From NCBI GenBank assembly GCA_003268905.1, contig QLTU01000005.1, positions 62,001 through 126,000 on the forward strand: a stretch of 64,000 bases of DNA, written 5' to 3'. A model generated the notes under the pieces. That model did no database searches. It was not told the origin of the DNA and worked only from the letters and a program-made list of their open reading frames with translations. The DNA is from Acidovorax defluvii (GTDB lineage: Bacteria; Pseudomonadota; Gammaproteobacteria; Burkholderiales; Burkholderiaceae_C). This document shows, one piece after another, positions 50,284 to 55,559 of the stretch (its first letter is position 1; every line of letters starts with the position of its first letter). The position numbers and the translations under genes were made by a program.

Positions 50284-50841
50284 TCAGGCGTTGCGTGCGT
50301 CGATGCCCCAGCGCGCAAGGGCGGCATCGTCGCTCACGCGCGCATCCACCCAGCGGGCTCCCTGCGCGGTTTCTTCCTTTTTCCAGAACGGCGCCTGGGT
50401 CTTGAGGTAGTCCATCAAAAACTCGCATGCCTGAAAGCTCTGGCCCCGGTGGGCGCTGGTCACGGCCACCAGCACGATCTGGTCGAGCGGCTGCAGCAGC
50501 CCCACGCGGTGGATGATGCGGGCGCCAAAAATATCAAAGCGCCGCATGGCCTCGTCCACCATCGCCTCGATGGATTTTTCGGTCATGCCGGGGTAGTGCT
50601 CCAGTTCCATGGAGGCCACGGCATCGCTGTCTTGCGCCGCCCGGCCGCCCGAAGGCGCAAGCGCCCCTTCGGAGGGCAGCGAAGACACGGACGTACCGAG
50701 CGTGGGGACCACGGTACGGTCACGCACGGTGCCGACAAAGCTGCACACCGCACCCACGCCCTTGTTCTCGTGGCGCAGCGCGGCAATTTCGGTGGAGACG
50801 TCAAAGTCCTCGGTCTGGATGGAAACGCGGGGCAAGGTCAT
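50284..50841 (-). CDS. moaE: Molybdopterin synthase catalytic subunit MoaE, with in-frame repeat insert
   Basis: A 185-residue enzyme that, with thiocarboxylated MoaD, converts precursor Z to molybdopterin. GAVCSFVGTVRDRT, then ASMELEHYPGMTEKSIEAM, VGLLQPLDQIVLVAVTSAHR and the catalytic-Lys segment APFWKKEE are typical. Between the first two, at about residues 44-71, an extra segment containing PTLGTSVSSLPSEGALAPSG is inserted; the usual protein is near 150-160 residues with only a few residues here. The insert DNA is related to one in thrC. ATG 50841 is chosen; the gene is not directly behind moaD. Confidence 0.93.
   Translation of the reverse strand: MTLPRVSIQTEDFDVSTEIAALRHENKGVGAVCSFVGTVRDRTVVPTLGTSVSSLPSEGALAPSGGRAAQDSDAVASMELEHYPGMTEKSIEAMVDEAMRRFDIFGARIIHRVGLLQPLDQIVLVAVTSAHRGQSFQACEFLMDYLKTQAPFWKKEETAQGARWVDARVSDDAALARWGIDARNA
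50635..50710 (-). repeat. In-frame coding repeat, copy in moaE
   Basis: A 76-bp segment aligns without gaps to 54735-54810 in thrC, about three quarters identical by eye; the coding strand of both starts CCCCACGCTCGG and shares TCGCTGCCC and GGGCGGCC. Both genes read it in the same frame. Inside it CCGAAGG...CCTTCGG (plus strand about 50649-50670) with inner GGCG/CGCC arms can form a hairpin. Confidence 0.85.
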
Positions 50842-50898
50842 GGCAAAAAGCTCTCTACAGGGCGAAATGACGGCAGGGGACGGGGCGCGGCCCACCCC

Positions 50899-51129
50899 TC
50901 AAGGCGAGCGGTGCAGGCGTGGCGCTGCCAGCAGCGCGCACTCTTCTTCCACCACCTTGTTCAGTTGCGTCAGCGCGGGCGATGGGGGCAGCTGGGCCAG
51001 CAAGGCTTGCAGGCGGGTGACATCACCGACGGTCGGGGCCACCTTGATCTGCGCGATGGCGGCGGTCAGGTTGCCGCCCCGAACCAGCGCCAGCACCTTG
51101 GCGGGCCATTCACTTTTGTTGCGTGCCAT
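50899..51129 (-). CDS. Small hypothetical protein
   Basis: A 76-residue acidic-basic mixed protein beginning MARNKSEWPAKVLALVRGGN and followed by LTAAIAQIKVAPTVGDVTRL; mostly helical, soluble and without cysteine motifs apart from one Cys. The first 55 residues look like a real conserved unit, but I do not recognise the family. It lies between moaE and moaD on the same strand, 57 bp upstream of moaE, so it could share the transcript. No strong ribosome binding site is seen at ATG 51129. Confidence 0.55.
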   Translation of the reverse strand: MARNKSEWPAKVLALVRGGNLTAAIAQIKVAPTVGDVTRLQALLAQLPPSPALTQLNKVVEEECALLAAPRLHRSP

Positions 51130-51203
51130 AAATTGTGAAATAGGTTTGTCTGTACGATTCGCCCGCACTGTACCCGCACTGCACAACCACCCCTTCTTCG
51201 CCC

Positions 51204-51458
51204 ATGGCCACACAAACGATTCAGACACCTCTGTACAAGCTCTATCCGTCGCCACGCAACCTGCACCGCGATATCTTCGAGCACCAGGTTTTCGTGCCCT
51301 ACCCCTACGCCATCATTGACCTGGATGTCATGGAGCTTTCGGGCAAGACCACGCTGTTTGCGGCCTGTCGGCTTTCCGACATGAAGATGGGGCAGTTGGT
51401 CACCTTCGATCTGGCACCCGATCAGGCCAAGTTTGAGCGTCTGTTCACACCCGACTGA
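51204..51458 (+). CDS. Small hypothetical protein
   Basis: An 84-residue soluble protein: MATQTIQTPLYKLYPSPRNL, then HQVFVPYPYAIIDLDVMELS and a C-terminal LVTFDLAPDQAKFERLFTPD. Balanced codon use and clear protein-like composition support it as a gene. Family not recognised. It starts a two-gene plus-strand unit inside the minus-strand moa cluster, divergent from the 76-residue gene; two copies of CCCGCACTG (51162 and 51173) lie in the 74-bp divergent gap. Confidence 0.55.
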   Translation: MATQTIQTPLYKLYPSPRNLHRDIFEHQVFVPYPYAIIDLDVMELSGKTTLFAACRLSDMKMGQLVTFDLAPDQAKFERLFTPD

Positions 51459-51467
51459 ACCACGCCC

Positions 51468-51815
51468 ATGCACGACGACAACCAGATTTTCGTTCCGCCG
51501 TCTTTCATGGCCGTGTTCACCGATGCCCGTGGGCGGCTCACTGAAAAGGCCGACGCCGTGCGCACGCGCTACGAGCTGTGCGAAGACCTGGCCGGCCACT
51601 TGGTGGAACATGCGCAGACGCTCTACCACGTGCAGGCCCCTTCAGAGGCCGAGATTTTGCGGCGCATCCATGCCGGGCTGTGCACGGCCGAATCGGGTGT
51701 ATCAACGGCCGAGGCGACCTGGATCGTCACGCGGCTGGCCGAACTACTGGTGTGGCCATGCCCCGACCTGGTTGTACCGCCGCCAGAGCAGCCTGCCGCG
51801 CCCGAGGTGCCCTGA
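51468..51815 (+). CDS. Small hypothetical protein
   Basis: A 115-residue acidic, mostly helical protein (MHDDNQIFVPPSFMAVFTDA, RTRYELCEDLAGHLVEHAQT). It begins 9 bp after the previous small gene, so the two are likely co-expressed. Family not recognised; the C-terminus is Pro-rich. A toxin-antitoxin or accessory cofactor role would be guesswork. Confidence 0.55.
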   Translation: MHDDNQIFVPPSFMAVFTDARGRLTEKADAVRTRYELCEDLAGHLVEHAQTLYHVQAPSEAEILRRIHAGLCTAESGVSTAEATWIVTRLAELLVWPCPDLVVPPPEQPAAPEVP

Positions 51816-51890
51816 ACTCGAACTACCCTGAACCTGCAGGTGCTGCCCGTTGCTGCCCGGCAGCCCGGTTGCGTGCCCGGCGCTTACCTG

Positions 51891-52142
51891 TCAGCCACCG
51901 GTGACCGGCGGAAAGAAGGCAACCTCTGCCCCGTCGGCCAGCGCGGCCGATTCATCGCTCAGCGTCTGGTTGAGCGCCATGCGCACGGCCTTGCCGCGCG
52001 CCAGGCTGTCGGCATGGGGGCCACCGCGCGCAATGAGCTCGTCGCGCAGCGCGCCCAGGGTGGCGGCAGTGGTTTGCACCGGCTCTAGCCCGGTGCCGAT
52101 CGCCTCGCGGATGGAGGCGAAATAGCGCACGGTAATCTTCAT
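51891..52142 (-). CDS. moaD: Molybdopterin synthase sulfur carrier MoaD
   Basis: An 83-residue ubiquitin-like protein (MKITVRYFASIREAIGTGLE) ending in AEVAFFPPVTGG; the C-terminal Gly-Gly is the site of thiocarboxylation. It overlaps the stop of moeA by 4 bp (ATGA). Partner MoaE is encoded about 1 kb further on, past three small genes. Confidence 0.96.
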   Translation of the reverse strand: MKITVRYFASIREAIGTGLEPVQTTAATLGALRDELIARGGPHADSLARGKAVRMALNQTLSDESAALADGAEVAFFPPVTGG

Positions 52143-53368
52143 GACAGCAGCTCCGAAAACGCAATGAACCGCACGGTGTCACCCGCTGCAATGGTCTGGC
52201 CGGCCGGGTTGTCCACCACACCGTCGCCCCAGGCGGCCGAGGTGAGCACCCCCGAACTCTGGTTGTTGAACAGGTCCAGCCCGCCCGTGGCGTTGTGCCG
52301 CACACGCAAAAATTCGCGGCGTTTATCGGCCTTGGGCCAGGTGAAACCAGCGCGGGCAGCTATGGTTTGAGGAGCAACAACAGAGGCTCCCTGCAGCCGC
52401 AGCACAAAGGGCCGCACCAGCAACGCAAAGGTCAGAAAGCTCGACACCGGGTTGCCTGGCAGGCCGATGAAGTGCGCTGCCTCCCCATCGCGTGGAATCT
52501 GGCCGTAGGCAAACGGCTTGCCGGGTTTCATGGCGATCTGCCACAAATCGAGCGTGCCCAGCGCCTGAACGGCGGGCTTGATGTGGTCTTCCTCGCCCAC
52601 CGACACACCGCCGCTGGTCAGGATCAGGTCGTGGGCGCTGCTTGCCGCGCGCAGGGCCTCGATGGTGGCTTCGCGCCGGTCGGGCACGATGCCGAAGTCG
52701 GTGACCTCGCAGCCCAGGCGCTGCAGCATGGCGCGCAGAAAAAAGCGGTTGCTGTTGTAGATGGCGCCGGGGCGCATCTGCTCGGGCGGCACATCGCCGG
52801 GCATGACCAGTTCGTCGCCGGTGGAAAACAGCGCCACGCGCGGGCGGCGCGCCACCTGCAGCTGGTGCAGGCCAATGCTGGCGGCCAGGCCCAGCTCGGC
52901 AGGCGTGAGGCGCGTGCCGGCGGGCAACACCACGGCGCCGCGCGTGATGTCTTCACCGGCACGGCGAATCCACTGGCCCGGCTGCGGCACGGCGTTGATG
53001 CGCACGCGGCCATCGCCCTGCGCCTCGCAGTCTTCCTGCATCAGGATGGCATCGGCACCTGCAGGCACGGGGGCGCCGGTGAAGATGCGCGCTGCCGTGC
53101 CCGGCTGCAGGGGCTCGCCCGCGCTGCCCGCTGCAATGCGCTGTGATACGGGCAGCAGGGCACCCGCAGCCGCCACATCGGCGCAGCGCACGGCATAGCC
53201 GTCCATCGAGCTGTTGTCCTGCGGCGGCACATGCAGCGCCGAGATGCAGTCCTGGGCCAGCACGCGGCCATCGGCATCAAAGGTGGTGACGGTGTCGACG
53301 CCTGTCAGCGGCGTGGCGTGGCCCAGCAACTCGGCCAGCGCTTCATCCAGCGGTTTGAGGGGTTTCAT
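52139..53368 (-). CDS. moeA: Molybdopterin molybdenumtransferase MoeA
   Basis: A 409-residue enzyme that inserts molybdate into adenylated molybdopterin. VPPQDNSSMDGYAVR, TGAPVPAGADAILMQED, LTSGGVSVGEEDHIK and GLPGNPVSSFLTF are the family signatures. The start ATG 53368 (MKPLKPLDEALAELL) overlaps the mobB stop by 4 bp; a start four codons upstream is possible. Coupled on both sides: mobB-moeA-moaD form one translational chain. Confidence 0.96.
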   Translation of the reverse strand: MKPLKPLDEALAELLGHATPLTGVDTVTTFDADGRVLAQDCISALHVPPQDNSSMDGYAVRCADVAAAGALLPVSQRIAAGSAGEPLQPGTAARIFTGAPVPAGADAILMQEDCEAQGDGRVRINAVPQPGQWIRRAGEDITRGAVVLPAGTRLTPAELGLAASIGLHQLQVARRPRVALFSTGDELVMPGDVPPEQMRPGAIYNSNRFFLRAMLQRLGCEVTDFGIVPDRREATIEALRAASSAHDLILTSGGVSVGEEDHIKPAVQALGTLDLWQIAMKPGKPFAYGQIPRDGEAAHFIGLPGNPVSSFLTFALLVRPFVLRLQGASVVAPQTIAARAGFTWPKADKRREFLRVRHNATGGLDLFNNQSSGVLTSAAWGDGVVDNPAGQTIAAGDTVRFIAFSELLS

Positions 53369-53934
53369 TGGGGGGCGCATGGCAACAGGTCTCCGTGCAG
53401 GTCCCATTGGTAGTCGAAGCGGTCGGCGTGCTGCAGCAGCCAGTCGACCACCTGCGCGGGCGCATTGAGGTCGAGCACGGGCAGCTGGGTGGGCACCGGC
53501 AGGCCGTGCGGGGCATCGGTGGCAACAGCGACCACAAAGTCGTCTTCGGGGTAGCGCACGGGCTTGGCCGCGCGTCCGGGCTCTGGCATGCGCCACACTT
53601 CGATCTTGAGCAGATCACTGTCTTTGAAGCCCTCCACCAGCACCCAGTCCACGCCCTGGTAAAGCTCGGCCAGCAGATGGTGCACGCTGAGCGTGGCGGG
53701 CTGCTCGAACTCGCGCACCAGCATGAGGCGCTTGTCGGAGGCGGCCACCACTTCGAAGGCACCGGCTTCGCGATGGCGGTAAGTGTCCTTGCCGGGGTGA
53801 TCGATGTCGAAACTGTGGTGGGCGTGTTTGACCACCGAAACGCGCAGCCCCCTGAGCCGCAACTCGGGGATCAACTGCTCGACCAGCGTGGTCTTGCCGC
53901 TGCCGGAGAAGCCGGCAAAGCCTACAACCTTCAT
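53365..53934 (-). CDS. mobB: Molybdopterin-guanine dinucleotide biosynthesis protein MobB
   Basis: A 189-residue P-loop GTPase that assists MobA in making the guanine dinucleotide form of the cofactor. Walker A is GFAGFSGSGKTTLVEQL, followed by VVKHAHHSFDIDHPGKDTYR and VLVEGFKDSDLLKIEV. First gene of the mobB-moeA-moaD chain; thrC lies about 110 bp upstream, separated by a dispersed repeat. mobA is not in the window. Confidence 0.95.
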   Translation of the reverse strand: MKVVGFAGFSGSGKTTLVEQLIPELRLRGLRVSVVKHAHHSFDIDHPGKDTYRHREAGAFEVVAASDKRLMLVREFEQPATLSVHHLLAELYQGVDWVLVEGFKDSDLLKIEVWRMPEPGRAAKPVRYPEDDFVVAVATDAPHGLPVPTQLPVLDLNAPAQVVDWLLQHADRFDYQWDLHGDLLPCAPQ

Positions 53935-53950
53935 CCAATGCTCCTGTGAA

Positions 53951-54010
53951 TAGCTATGCTATTTATAGCTGCCAGCGCTTATCAGAAAAGCGCTAGGGGC
54001 ATTTTTTATT
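53951..54010 (+). repeat. Two-hairpin intergenic element, copy 5
   Basis: Reads TAGCTATGCTATTTATAGCT, then GCCAGCGCTTATCAGAAAAG and CGCTAGGGGCATTTTTTATT. Both arms are visible: AGCTAT...ATAGCT and AGCGCTT...AAGCGCT. It sits between thrC and mobB. Confidence 0.75.
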
Positions 54011-54044
54011 CAAAATCTTGCTGTGCCGCACTTCCGACAGGCAA

Positions 54045-55559
54045 TCACTGGCAGTGCTGTTCGATGTAGGCCTTGACCTGCTGCACATCGGCGGGCATGA
54101 CCCGCACGCGTTTGGGCAAGGCCTCGATGCCGGCAAAGCGGTCGGGCCGCTCGGGCGCATGACCGAGGGCCTCTTGAATGGTTTCGGCAAACTTGATGGG
54201 CAGAGCCGTTTCCAGCACGATCATCGGCACCGCCGGGTCGCCCCGGTGCTCGCGCGCCACCTTCACGCCATCGGCGGTGTGGGTGTCGATGGTCACGCCA
54301 AAGCGGCTGTAGGTATCGCGGATCGTGGCCAGGCGGTCTGCATGGGTGCTCTTGCCGCTTTCAAAGCCGTATTTGGCTGCAGCGTCGGCAAACAACGGCT
54401 CCGCGCTCAGGTCGAAGCGGCCATAGGTCTGCAAGGCGGCGCTGAACAAGGCCTTGGTGCGTTGGCCATTGCGCCCCAGCAGGTCGAACACAAAGCGCTC
54501 GAAGTTGCTGGCCTTGCTGATGTCCATCGAGGGGCTCGATGTTTCGTGTGTGTCGGCGCTGCCGCGCACGCGGTACACACCGGTGCGAAAGAACTCGTCG
54601 AGCACGTCGTTCTCGTTGGTGGCCACCACCAGCTTGTCGATCGGCAGGCCCATCATGCGCGCCACATGGCCGGCGCAGATGTTGCCGAAGTTGCCGCTGG
54701 GCACGGTGAAGCTGACCTTCTGGTCGTTGGGATTCGCCGACGGGCCGCCCCTAGGCGAATCAGCCCCCTCGGGGGGCAGCGAGGACACGCCAGTGCCGAG
54801 CGTGGGGGCCGGGTGTTCAGTGGCTTGGATGTAGCCCGCAAAGTAGTACACCACCTGCGCCAAGAGGCGCGCCCAGTTGATGGAGTTGACGGTGCCGATC
54901 TTGTACTTGCGTTTGAATTCGAGGTCGTTGCTGACGGCCTTGACGATGTCCTGGCAGTCGTCAAACACGCCTTCGATGGCGATGTTGTGGATGTTTTCGT
55001 CCTGCAGGCTGAACATTTGCGCCTGCTGGAAGGGGCTCATGCGGCCGTGCGGGCTGGTCATGAACACGCGGATGCCCTTCTTGCCGCGCATGGCGTATTC
55101 GGCCGCGCTGCCGGTGTCGCCACTGGTGGCCCCAAGAATGTTCAGCTCGGCACCACGGCGGCCCAGCTCGTACTCGAACAGGTTGCCCAAGAGCTGCATG
55201 GCCATGTCCTTAAAGGCCAGCGTGGGGCCGTTGGACAGGGCTTCGAGCCACAGGCTGTTTTCGAGGTGGCGCAGGGGCACGATCTCGCCCGTGCCGAATA
55301 CTTCCGCGGTGTACGTCTTGGCGCACAGGGCCTTGAGGTCGGCGGCAGGAATGTCGTCGATATAGAGCGACAGGATCTGAAACGCCAGCTCGGCGTAGCC
55401 CTGCTCGTGGTAGGCCTTGCGCAGTTGGGTCAACTTGGCGTCGTCGATCTGCGGGTAGTGCTCGGGCAGGTACAGGCCGCCGTCGGGCGCCAGGCCTTCG
55501 AGCAGGATGTCGCAAAAGTGTTTGCGGTCCGGGTGGCCGCGCGTGGAAAGGTACAGCAT
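54045..55559 (-). CDS. thrC: Threonine synthase, with in-frame repeat insert
   Basis: A 504-residue PLP enzyme for the last step of threonine synthesis. The PLP lysine is Lys117 in NGPTLAFKDMAMQLLG; LGATSGDTGSAAEYAM and SFTVPSGNFGNICAGHVARM bind the cofactor phosphate. Between YYFAGYIQAT and NDQKVSFTVPSG, at about residues 249-276, there is an extra segment containing PTLGTGVSSLPPEGADSPRG that is related to the insert in MoaE. Without it the protein would have the usual length of about 475 residues. Downstream of hom by 23 bp. Confidence 0.96.
   Translation of the reverse strand: MLYLSTRGHPDRKHFCDILLEGLAPDGGLYLPEHYPQIDDAKLTQLRKAYHEQGYAELAFQILSLYIDDIPAADLKALCAKTYTAEVFGTGEIVPLRHLENSLWLEALSNGPTLAFKDMAMQLLGNLFEYELGRRGAELNILGATSGDTGSAAEYAMRGKKGIRVFMTSPHGRMSPFQQAQMFSLQDENIHNIAIEGVFDDCQDIVKAVSNDLEFKRKYKIGTVNSINWARLLAQVVYYFAGYIQATEHPAPTLGTGVSSLPPEGADSPRGGPSANPNDQKVSFTVPSGNFGNICAGHVARMMGLPIDKLVVATNENDVLDEFFRTGVYRVRGSADTHETSSPSMDISKASNFERFVFDLLGRNGQRTKALFSAALQTYGRFDLSAEPLFADAAAKYGFESGKSTHADRLATIRDTYSRFGVTIDTHTADGVKVAREHRGDPAVPMIVLETALPIKFAETIQEALGHAPERPDRFAGIEALPKRVRVMPADVQQVKAYIEQHCQ
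54735..54810 (-). repeat. In-frame coding repeat, copy in thrC
   Basis: A 76-bp segment that aligns gap-free with 50635-50710 in moaE, in the same orientation and reading frame. Its coding strand runs CCCCACGCTCGGCACTGGCG, then TGTCCTCGCTGCCCCCCGAG and GGGGCTGATTCG. It encodes a Pro/Gly/Ser-rich loop placed just before the conserved VSFTVPSGNFGN strand. Confidence 0.85.

Follow-up and report, generated by a model that had tools for sequence, protein, structure and literature searches.

Repetitive extragenic palindromic (REP) sequences, linked with REP-associated tyrosine transposases (RAYT), and other miniature inverted-repeat transposable elements (MITEs) are non-autonomous hairpin repeats present in dozens per genome; the REPs are mainly extragenic. 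Rickettsia are intracellular bacteria with AT-rich genomes. The palindromic elements of Rickettsia are about 150 bp long and fall into ten families, and nearly half of 44 copies lie within open reading frames (ORFs) (PMC10969869, in part). The Beta-proteobacterial repeat element (BRE) of Hot et al. 2011, first named in Bordetella and discovered via a Bordetella small RNA, is a tandem-forming sequence of 75-91 bp found in Bordetella and in Comamonadaceae, including Acidovorax and Polaromonas; it is usually intergenic, with some copies within coding sequences according to its authors, and a Bordetella pertussis copy lies at 3605317-3605401 (PMC3110155, in part). We examined 64,000 nucleotides of Acidovorax defluvii DNA (assembly GCA_003268905.1, contig QLTU01000005.1, positions 62,001 to 126,000 of the forward strand; "the window", numbered from its first letter), in which related sequences interrupt moaE and thrC. 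The evidence makes it probable that both belong to a dispersed repeat, non-autonomous, about 82 bp long and able to form three hairpins on one strand, most likely the Comamonadaceae form of BRE, which spreads through genomes and also enters coding frames.

Two related insertions within enzyme genes

The sequence-only reading of the window had noticed that 50635-50710 and 54735-54810 are related in the same orientation without gaps and are read in a common frame. Their relatedness is better than chance (gapless alignment, 79% identity, BLAST E 4.7e-12 in the 4.11 Mb genome), and translation bore out the common frame: both units lie antisense to the host gene and are read as VPTLGTSVSSLPSEGALAPSGG and APTLGTGVSSLPPEGADSPRGG. 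The size of 76 bp given there holds for the aligned core, whereas the true insertions are longer, being 81 bp net in moaE (4 of 4 relatives; a cruder BLAST estimate gave 81 bp in one relative and 82 bp in three) and 84 bp net in thrC (29 of 29 same-genus relatives by DNA alignment). Units were scored with R1, a covariance model whose E-values are rough and whose 22 rows include both the moaE and the thrC unit. The genes and units are placed as follows.

50287..50841, minus strand: moaE, molybdopterin synthase catalytic subunit, 185 amino acids including the insert; Pfam MoaE match extending across the insert
50630..50710, plus strand: element unit in moaE, antisense to the gene; R1 score 78.9 bits, 81 bp against four relatives
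54045..55559, minus strand: thrC, threonine synthase, 504 amino acids including the insert; Pfam PALP match extending across the insert
54730..54810, plus strand: element unit in thrC, antisense to the gene; R1 score 97.4 bits, net 84 bp

ThrC had a single full-length match in the whole genome. The best solved homologues are without the insert, the alignment being broken at 248/276 for ThrC (3v7n) and at 42/71 for MoaE (7l2a). In a fold of ThrC predicted from 16 sequences (mean predicted local distance difference test score, pLDDT, 69.5), the insert at residues 250-276 was the least confident part and lay between a helix and a strand; this mediocre model fits an insert that forms a loose loop.

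Copies in the genome and the frames in which they are read

At a cutoff of E <= 0.01, R1 detected 59 units in the genome, which were grouped into 33 loci and were all re-found in the fetched stretches. Units were about 82 bp long (range 71-113 bp, mostly 80-84). A single unit was present at 26 of the loci; the others held arrays of nine units (C8), six (C15), five together with a partial unit (C1:257), four (C1:159) and, in three cases, three. A run of N lies inside the C15 array (L033; G000:C15:30285-30803), so that its unit count is uncertain.

The earlier suggestion of a spreading element that tolerates residence in coding DNA agrees with the counts: a Pfam-supported reading frame overlapped the unit at 28 of the 33 loci, and 27 of the 33 had an empty relative. 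Locus classes follow our own reading of the Pfam matches, from whose hits the short gene names are derived. Pfam matches ran across or flanked the unit at 18 loci, with both orientations occurring inside enzymes; at 10 loci the unit lay near the N-terminus or ahead of the first domain, and in the BioD-type case the gene frame covers only part of an array.

Across or flanked by domains: ThrC, MoaE, FemAB-like, AAA_5, biotin carboxylase, APH-family, molybdopterin oxidoreductase, UvrA-type, AcrB-type, RecG, P-type ATPase, HrpA-type helicase, PEP carboxylase, GH3, RecJ, AroA-Cmk, spermidine synthase-type, SNF2
Near the N-terminus: ABC ATPase, pilin-like, phosphoribosyltransferase, BioD-type, ABC permease, PurK, DctM, FtsZ-domain, FtsX, radical SAM
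Between genes or at gene ends (five loci): L129, L132, L134, L137, L156

Two frames dominated among the coding copies. Sense copies were in phase 0 in 12 of 16 cases (P 0.0024) and antisense copies in phase 2 in 10 of 12 (P 0.0016), both values being corrected for the best-of-three choice of frame. Stops alone do not account for this preference, because all six frames are usually open (each was stop-free in 41 to 55 of 58 units). The unused antisense frames of one unit translated in six frames were richer in Arg, Cys or Trp, and the preference may reflect selection on the encoded peptide.

Net length, taken as unit or array length minus the projected gap, was a multiple of three at 21 of the 22 coding loci with an empty relative, single units giving 72 to 117 bp and two arrays 261 and 330 bp; at L136 one of three rows gave 82 bp. 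The five loci outside genes gave 739-744, 84, 91-93, 97-107 and 85 bp. Arrays inside genes advanced in steps of 84 or 87 bp (L130, L131, L135 and L139, one step containing N being excluded), or of 84 bp when measured by unit ends (L149); steps in the intergenic nine-unit array L129 were 83 bp and once 84.

Empty sites in the genus and occupied sites beyond it

The sample comprised 40 genomes of the genus, the A. defluvii genome included. Joined-flank probes for 28 loci were run against 12 relatives, followed by comparison with fetched relatives. At least one same-genus relative was empty at each of the 27 loci, thrC and the three weakest loci (R1 E 0.001-0.003) among them, and for seven of these loci the evidence comes from one relative. 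Outside the 27, L131 and L135 were unprobed, L139 and L147 were left out, and L140 and L152 had no usable relative among those fetched. The thrC site was empty in 38 of 39 relatives, the ThrC match being split so that it ended at residue 248-251 and resumed at 276-278 with no more than 3 bp between; the 39th relative (G027) matched only the C-terminal part of ThrC. For moaE a joined-flank match was found in at least 11 of 12 relatives, four of which were aligned. 

The unit itself was present in 39 of the 40 genomes, and an order-wide R1 scan with stricter filters found it in 22 of 200 genomes and 14 of 109 genera, counts that include the A. defluvii genome. At 19 of 20 loci fetched from G088, which belongs to a different genus of the family, the unit was crossed by an ORF of at least 150 amino acids, and 9 of these 19 ORFs had a Pfam match, the position of the unit relative to the domain not being checked. 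A search with the ThrC insert region gave 76 proteins at E <= 0.01, belonging to ThrC and, counted by eye, about 16 other families; one further family, PF01923, sits in a chimeric-looking protein. The RecG insert region, which gives the peptide in its sense reading, matched 99 proteins, mostly RecG, with biotin carboxylases, Mpl, BoxA, UvrA, PEPC and others, the RecG matches not being individually checked for the insert. One 81-base unit query matched eight plasmid records and no phage record.

In the 120 MoaE matches listed, the spacer measured 8 residues in 19, 20-28 in 3, 32-39 in 86 and 63-66 in 5, with 7 unread; the query carried the insert, and these counts are not frequencies. The spacer classes correspond to none, one or two units, and one ThrC (P0016) likewise carries two. 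In three database proteins (P0013, P0014, P0032) the element peptide marks a change from one enzyme to a different one, which could represent recombination between units or errors of metagenome assembly.

A covarying three-hairpin fold

RNAalifold, applied to alignment A2, returned three hairpins with the same 23 pairs as a structure drawn by hand. Their positions in the thrC unit, from the alignment columns, are:

54731..54761, plus strand: hairpin 1, variable arms GATTCGCC / GGCGAATC with a conserved loop between
54763..54777, plus strand: hairpin 2, GCCCCC / GGGGGC
54779..54801, plus strand: hairpin 3, a GA/GA internal loop, then the end GTGGGGGCC

Pairing was possible in 93.9% of the cells; shuffles gave 81.5%, and sliding the partners gave no more than 50.5%. 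Two-sided change occurred in 11 of the 23 pairs and in 59 cells, against 17.3 in shuffles, a level reached in 0 of 500, and one-sided change in 5 cells only. The count of further pair types was unremarkable, 60 of 500 shuffles equalling it. The scarcity of one-sided changes fits better with a hairpin formed in DNA than in RNA. An Rfam scan of nine loci gave no family matching the unit at E <= 1; its sole match was a microRNA model, outside the unit in one locus.

Ends of the unit, candidate enzymes and neighbouring sequence

The left arm of hairpin 1 resembled the right flank beyond permutations in the A. defluvii genome (P 0.0004 and 0.06, depending on window), a comparison confounded by ends shared within clades, and it also resembled the empty site, with P 0.003-0.04 across the window lengths used. 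The likeness may represent arms derived from the target, terminal direct repeats, or both; target duplication as the source of the left arm was weakened by clade-specific ends such as GTTTCATNTCAG. Elsewhere in the order (L252-L256 and L302-L314), many units have GTTTCAT... after them and CATGTCAG... before them, which suggests clade-specific terminal direct repeats there.

A Y1_Tnp match was found in 37 of the 40 genus genomes. In nine stretches around eight Y1 genes (27,774 bases, E <= 1) there was no unit. G030, the sole genus genome in which the thrC unit had no DNA match, carries a Y1 gene, and G019, G026 and G038 (82, 90 and 84% complete) have units and no Y1 match. Carriers and non-carriers are not told apart by the presence of a Y1 transposase. 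The Y1 match at G000:C22:1747-2112 (E 6.9e-36) is far above the weaker Y1 genes across the genus, and no unit adjoins it.

A second, AT-rich type of repeat (TAGCTGCCAGCGCTTATC...) occurs at 53945-54010 of the window, between the upstream gene and thrC, and a stretch similar to it adjoins the element locus L132.

Proposed course of events and alternatives

We propose that new copies of the unit are made and placed elsewhere by a factor acting in trans, probably with a single-stranded DNA hairpin as intermediate. Frame-shifting copies, and those whose peptide is harmful, would be lost, so that the survivors within genes would be those read as a short low-complexity linker, near xAPSGGSxPxAxGSVGA or APTLGTGVSSLPPEGA, situated close to N-termini or in loops that tolerate it. 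Tandem arrays would then arise by slippage between direct repeats and be kept within genes at multiples of three.

Several observations weigh against this proposal. No mobilising enzyme was tied to the repeat, and neither a terminal inverted repeat nor a target duplication of fixed length was evident by eye in the aligned insertion sites. Single sequences were barely more foldable than shuffles (z -1.5 to 0), so that the case for the fold rests on covariation. The multiple-of-three result is partly built in, because an open frame across the unit helped to define the coding loci; its one exception is L145, at the start of a DctM-type gene, with 89 bp net, and the array at L140, where the BioD-type gene begins, advances in steps of 83-84 bp. 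Finally, ThrC has a unit at the corresponding position in other lineages, of which one is named Rhodoferax aquaticus, and so has MoaE in proteins named Variovorax, Polaromonas, Hylemonella and Hydrogenophaga; some copies may therefore be old, with patchy loss since.

Taken to its end, this last point would mean that the insertions date from an ancestor of the Comamonadaceae, were lost patchily and have not moved recently. The moaE and thrC sites are indeed recurrent or old in other lineages, and hence not only recent: MoaE and ThrC from several lineages have the unit at an identical residue, and short direct repeats at the ends of a unit could permit precise loss. Occupation in other lineages approaches the refuting condition set by the sequence-only reading but falls short of it, since 38 of 39 (thrC) and at least 11 of 12 (moaE) congeners are empty. 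An empty congener exists at 27 different sites. In a quick ThrC tree the filled A. defluvii copy fell in a starred group that also contained five empty congeners and two more filled rows, and the filled/empty label needed 3 changes, 2 of them forced by starred branches, against 15.2 in shuffles; the filled rows were chosen for having the insert, and gain and loss are indistinguishable in this tree. We regard purely ancient insertion as improbable. The idea that RAYT or another Y1 transposase moves the repeat, as for REP sequences, would suit a hairpin-rich, strand-specific repeat without evident inverted ends in a genus where Y1 matches are nearly general, yet the stretches around the Y1 genes held no unit, and G030 on the one side and G019, G026 and G038 on the other break the association; it is quite unlikely. 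A regulatory or terminator-like RNA module, placed near genes by selection, would account for the conserved three-hairpin fold and recalls the small RNA through which BRE was discovered (PMC3110155, in part). Against it stand the two orientations inside enzymes, the position of the unit inside a domain or between domains at 18 of 33 loci and the lack of an Rfam family for the unit in the nine loci scanned, which make it very improbable. A spreading repeat might, lastly, use a particular route, in which the target sequence provides, or is matched by, the left arm of hairpin 1, the right arm being an inverted copy of that left arm, so that the stem is made afresh at each insertion. Such self-templating hairpin transposition is put forward because the arms vary between copies yet stay complementary, and because the left arm resembles the empty site and the right flank; we think it unlikely. 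We know of no other bacterial repeat with this mode.

Comparison with described repeats

The best-known repeats resident in frame within proteins are those of Rickettsia, for which the reduced genome of an intracellular bacterium could be the explanation. In A. defluvii the same behaviour is seen in a GC-rich, probably free-living group, and with a larger coding share: 28 of 33 loci, compared with nearly half of the 44 Rickettsia copies (PMC10969869, in part). Since dozens of sequenced congeners supply empty sites, the spread of such a repeat through ordinary enzyme genes becomes testable, as do the questions of what makes the peptide tolerable and whether the linkers create new protein variants.

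The literature searched on repeats of Comamonadaceae and Betaproteobacteria gave the BRE paper as the sole account of this element. The sequence-only reading was aware of no description for this group, but one exists: BRE already covers Comamonadaceae, copies in coding sequence included (PMC3110155, in part). Compared by description and not by sequence, our repeat probably belongs to this little-studied family, as its Comamonadaceae branch. It resembles BRE in size, in being GC-rich, in tandem copies separated by few bases, in variable unit numbers and in some coding copies, and also in the taxa concerned, with several copies per genome in several Burkholderiales families; it differs in that BRE is usually intergenic whereas 28 of 33 loci here overlap a coding frame. 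The intergenic placement of BRE is a tendency and not a definition, as its authors also report coding copies. The portions of the BRE paper drawn on contain no consensus fold, empty-site analysis, frame analysis or mobility test. Within the literature searched, what appears to be new is a three-hairpin fold with covariation, residence mainly in coding sequence, the rule of two frames and the systematic occurrence of empty sites.

The earlier comparison with Rickettsia palindromic elements holds for behaviour: in both cases a small palindromic repeat has entered unrelated genes in frame, relatives have the site empty, and the same peptide appears across proteins (PMC10969869, in part). The likeness is one of behaviour only. 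Tandem arrays and both orientations occur here. With REP sequences and MITEs the repeat shares the character of a non-autonomous hairpin repeat in dozens of copies per genome; it departs from REP/RAYT in having no unit beside the eight Y1 genes, and it may differ from classical MITEs, neither inverted ends nor a fixed target duplication being evident by eye. BRE is the closest named family.
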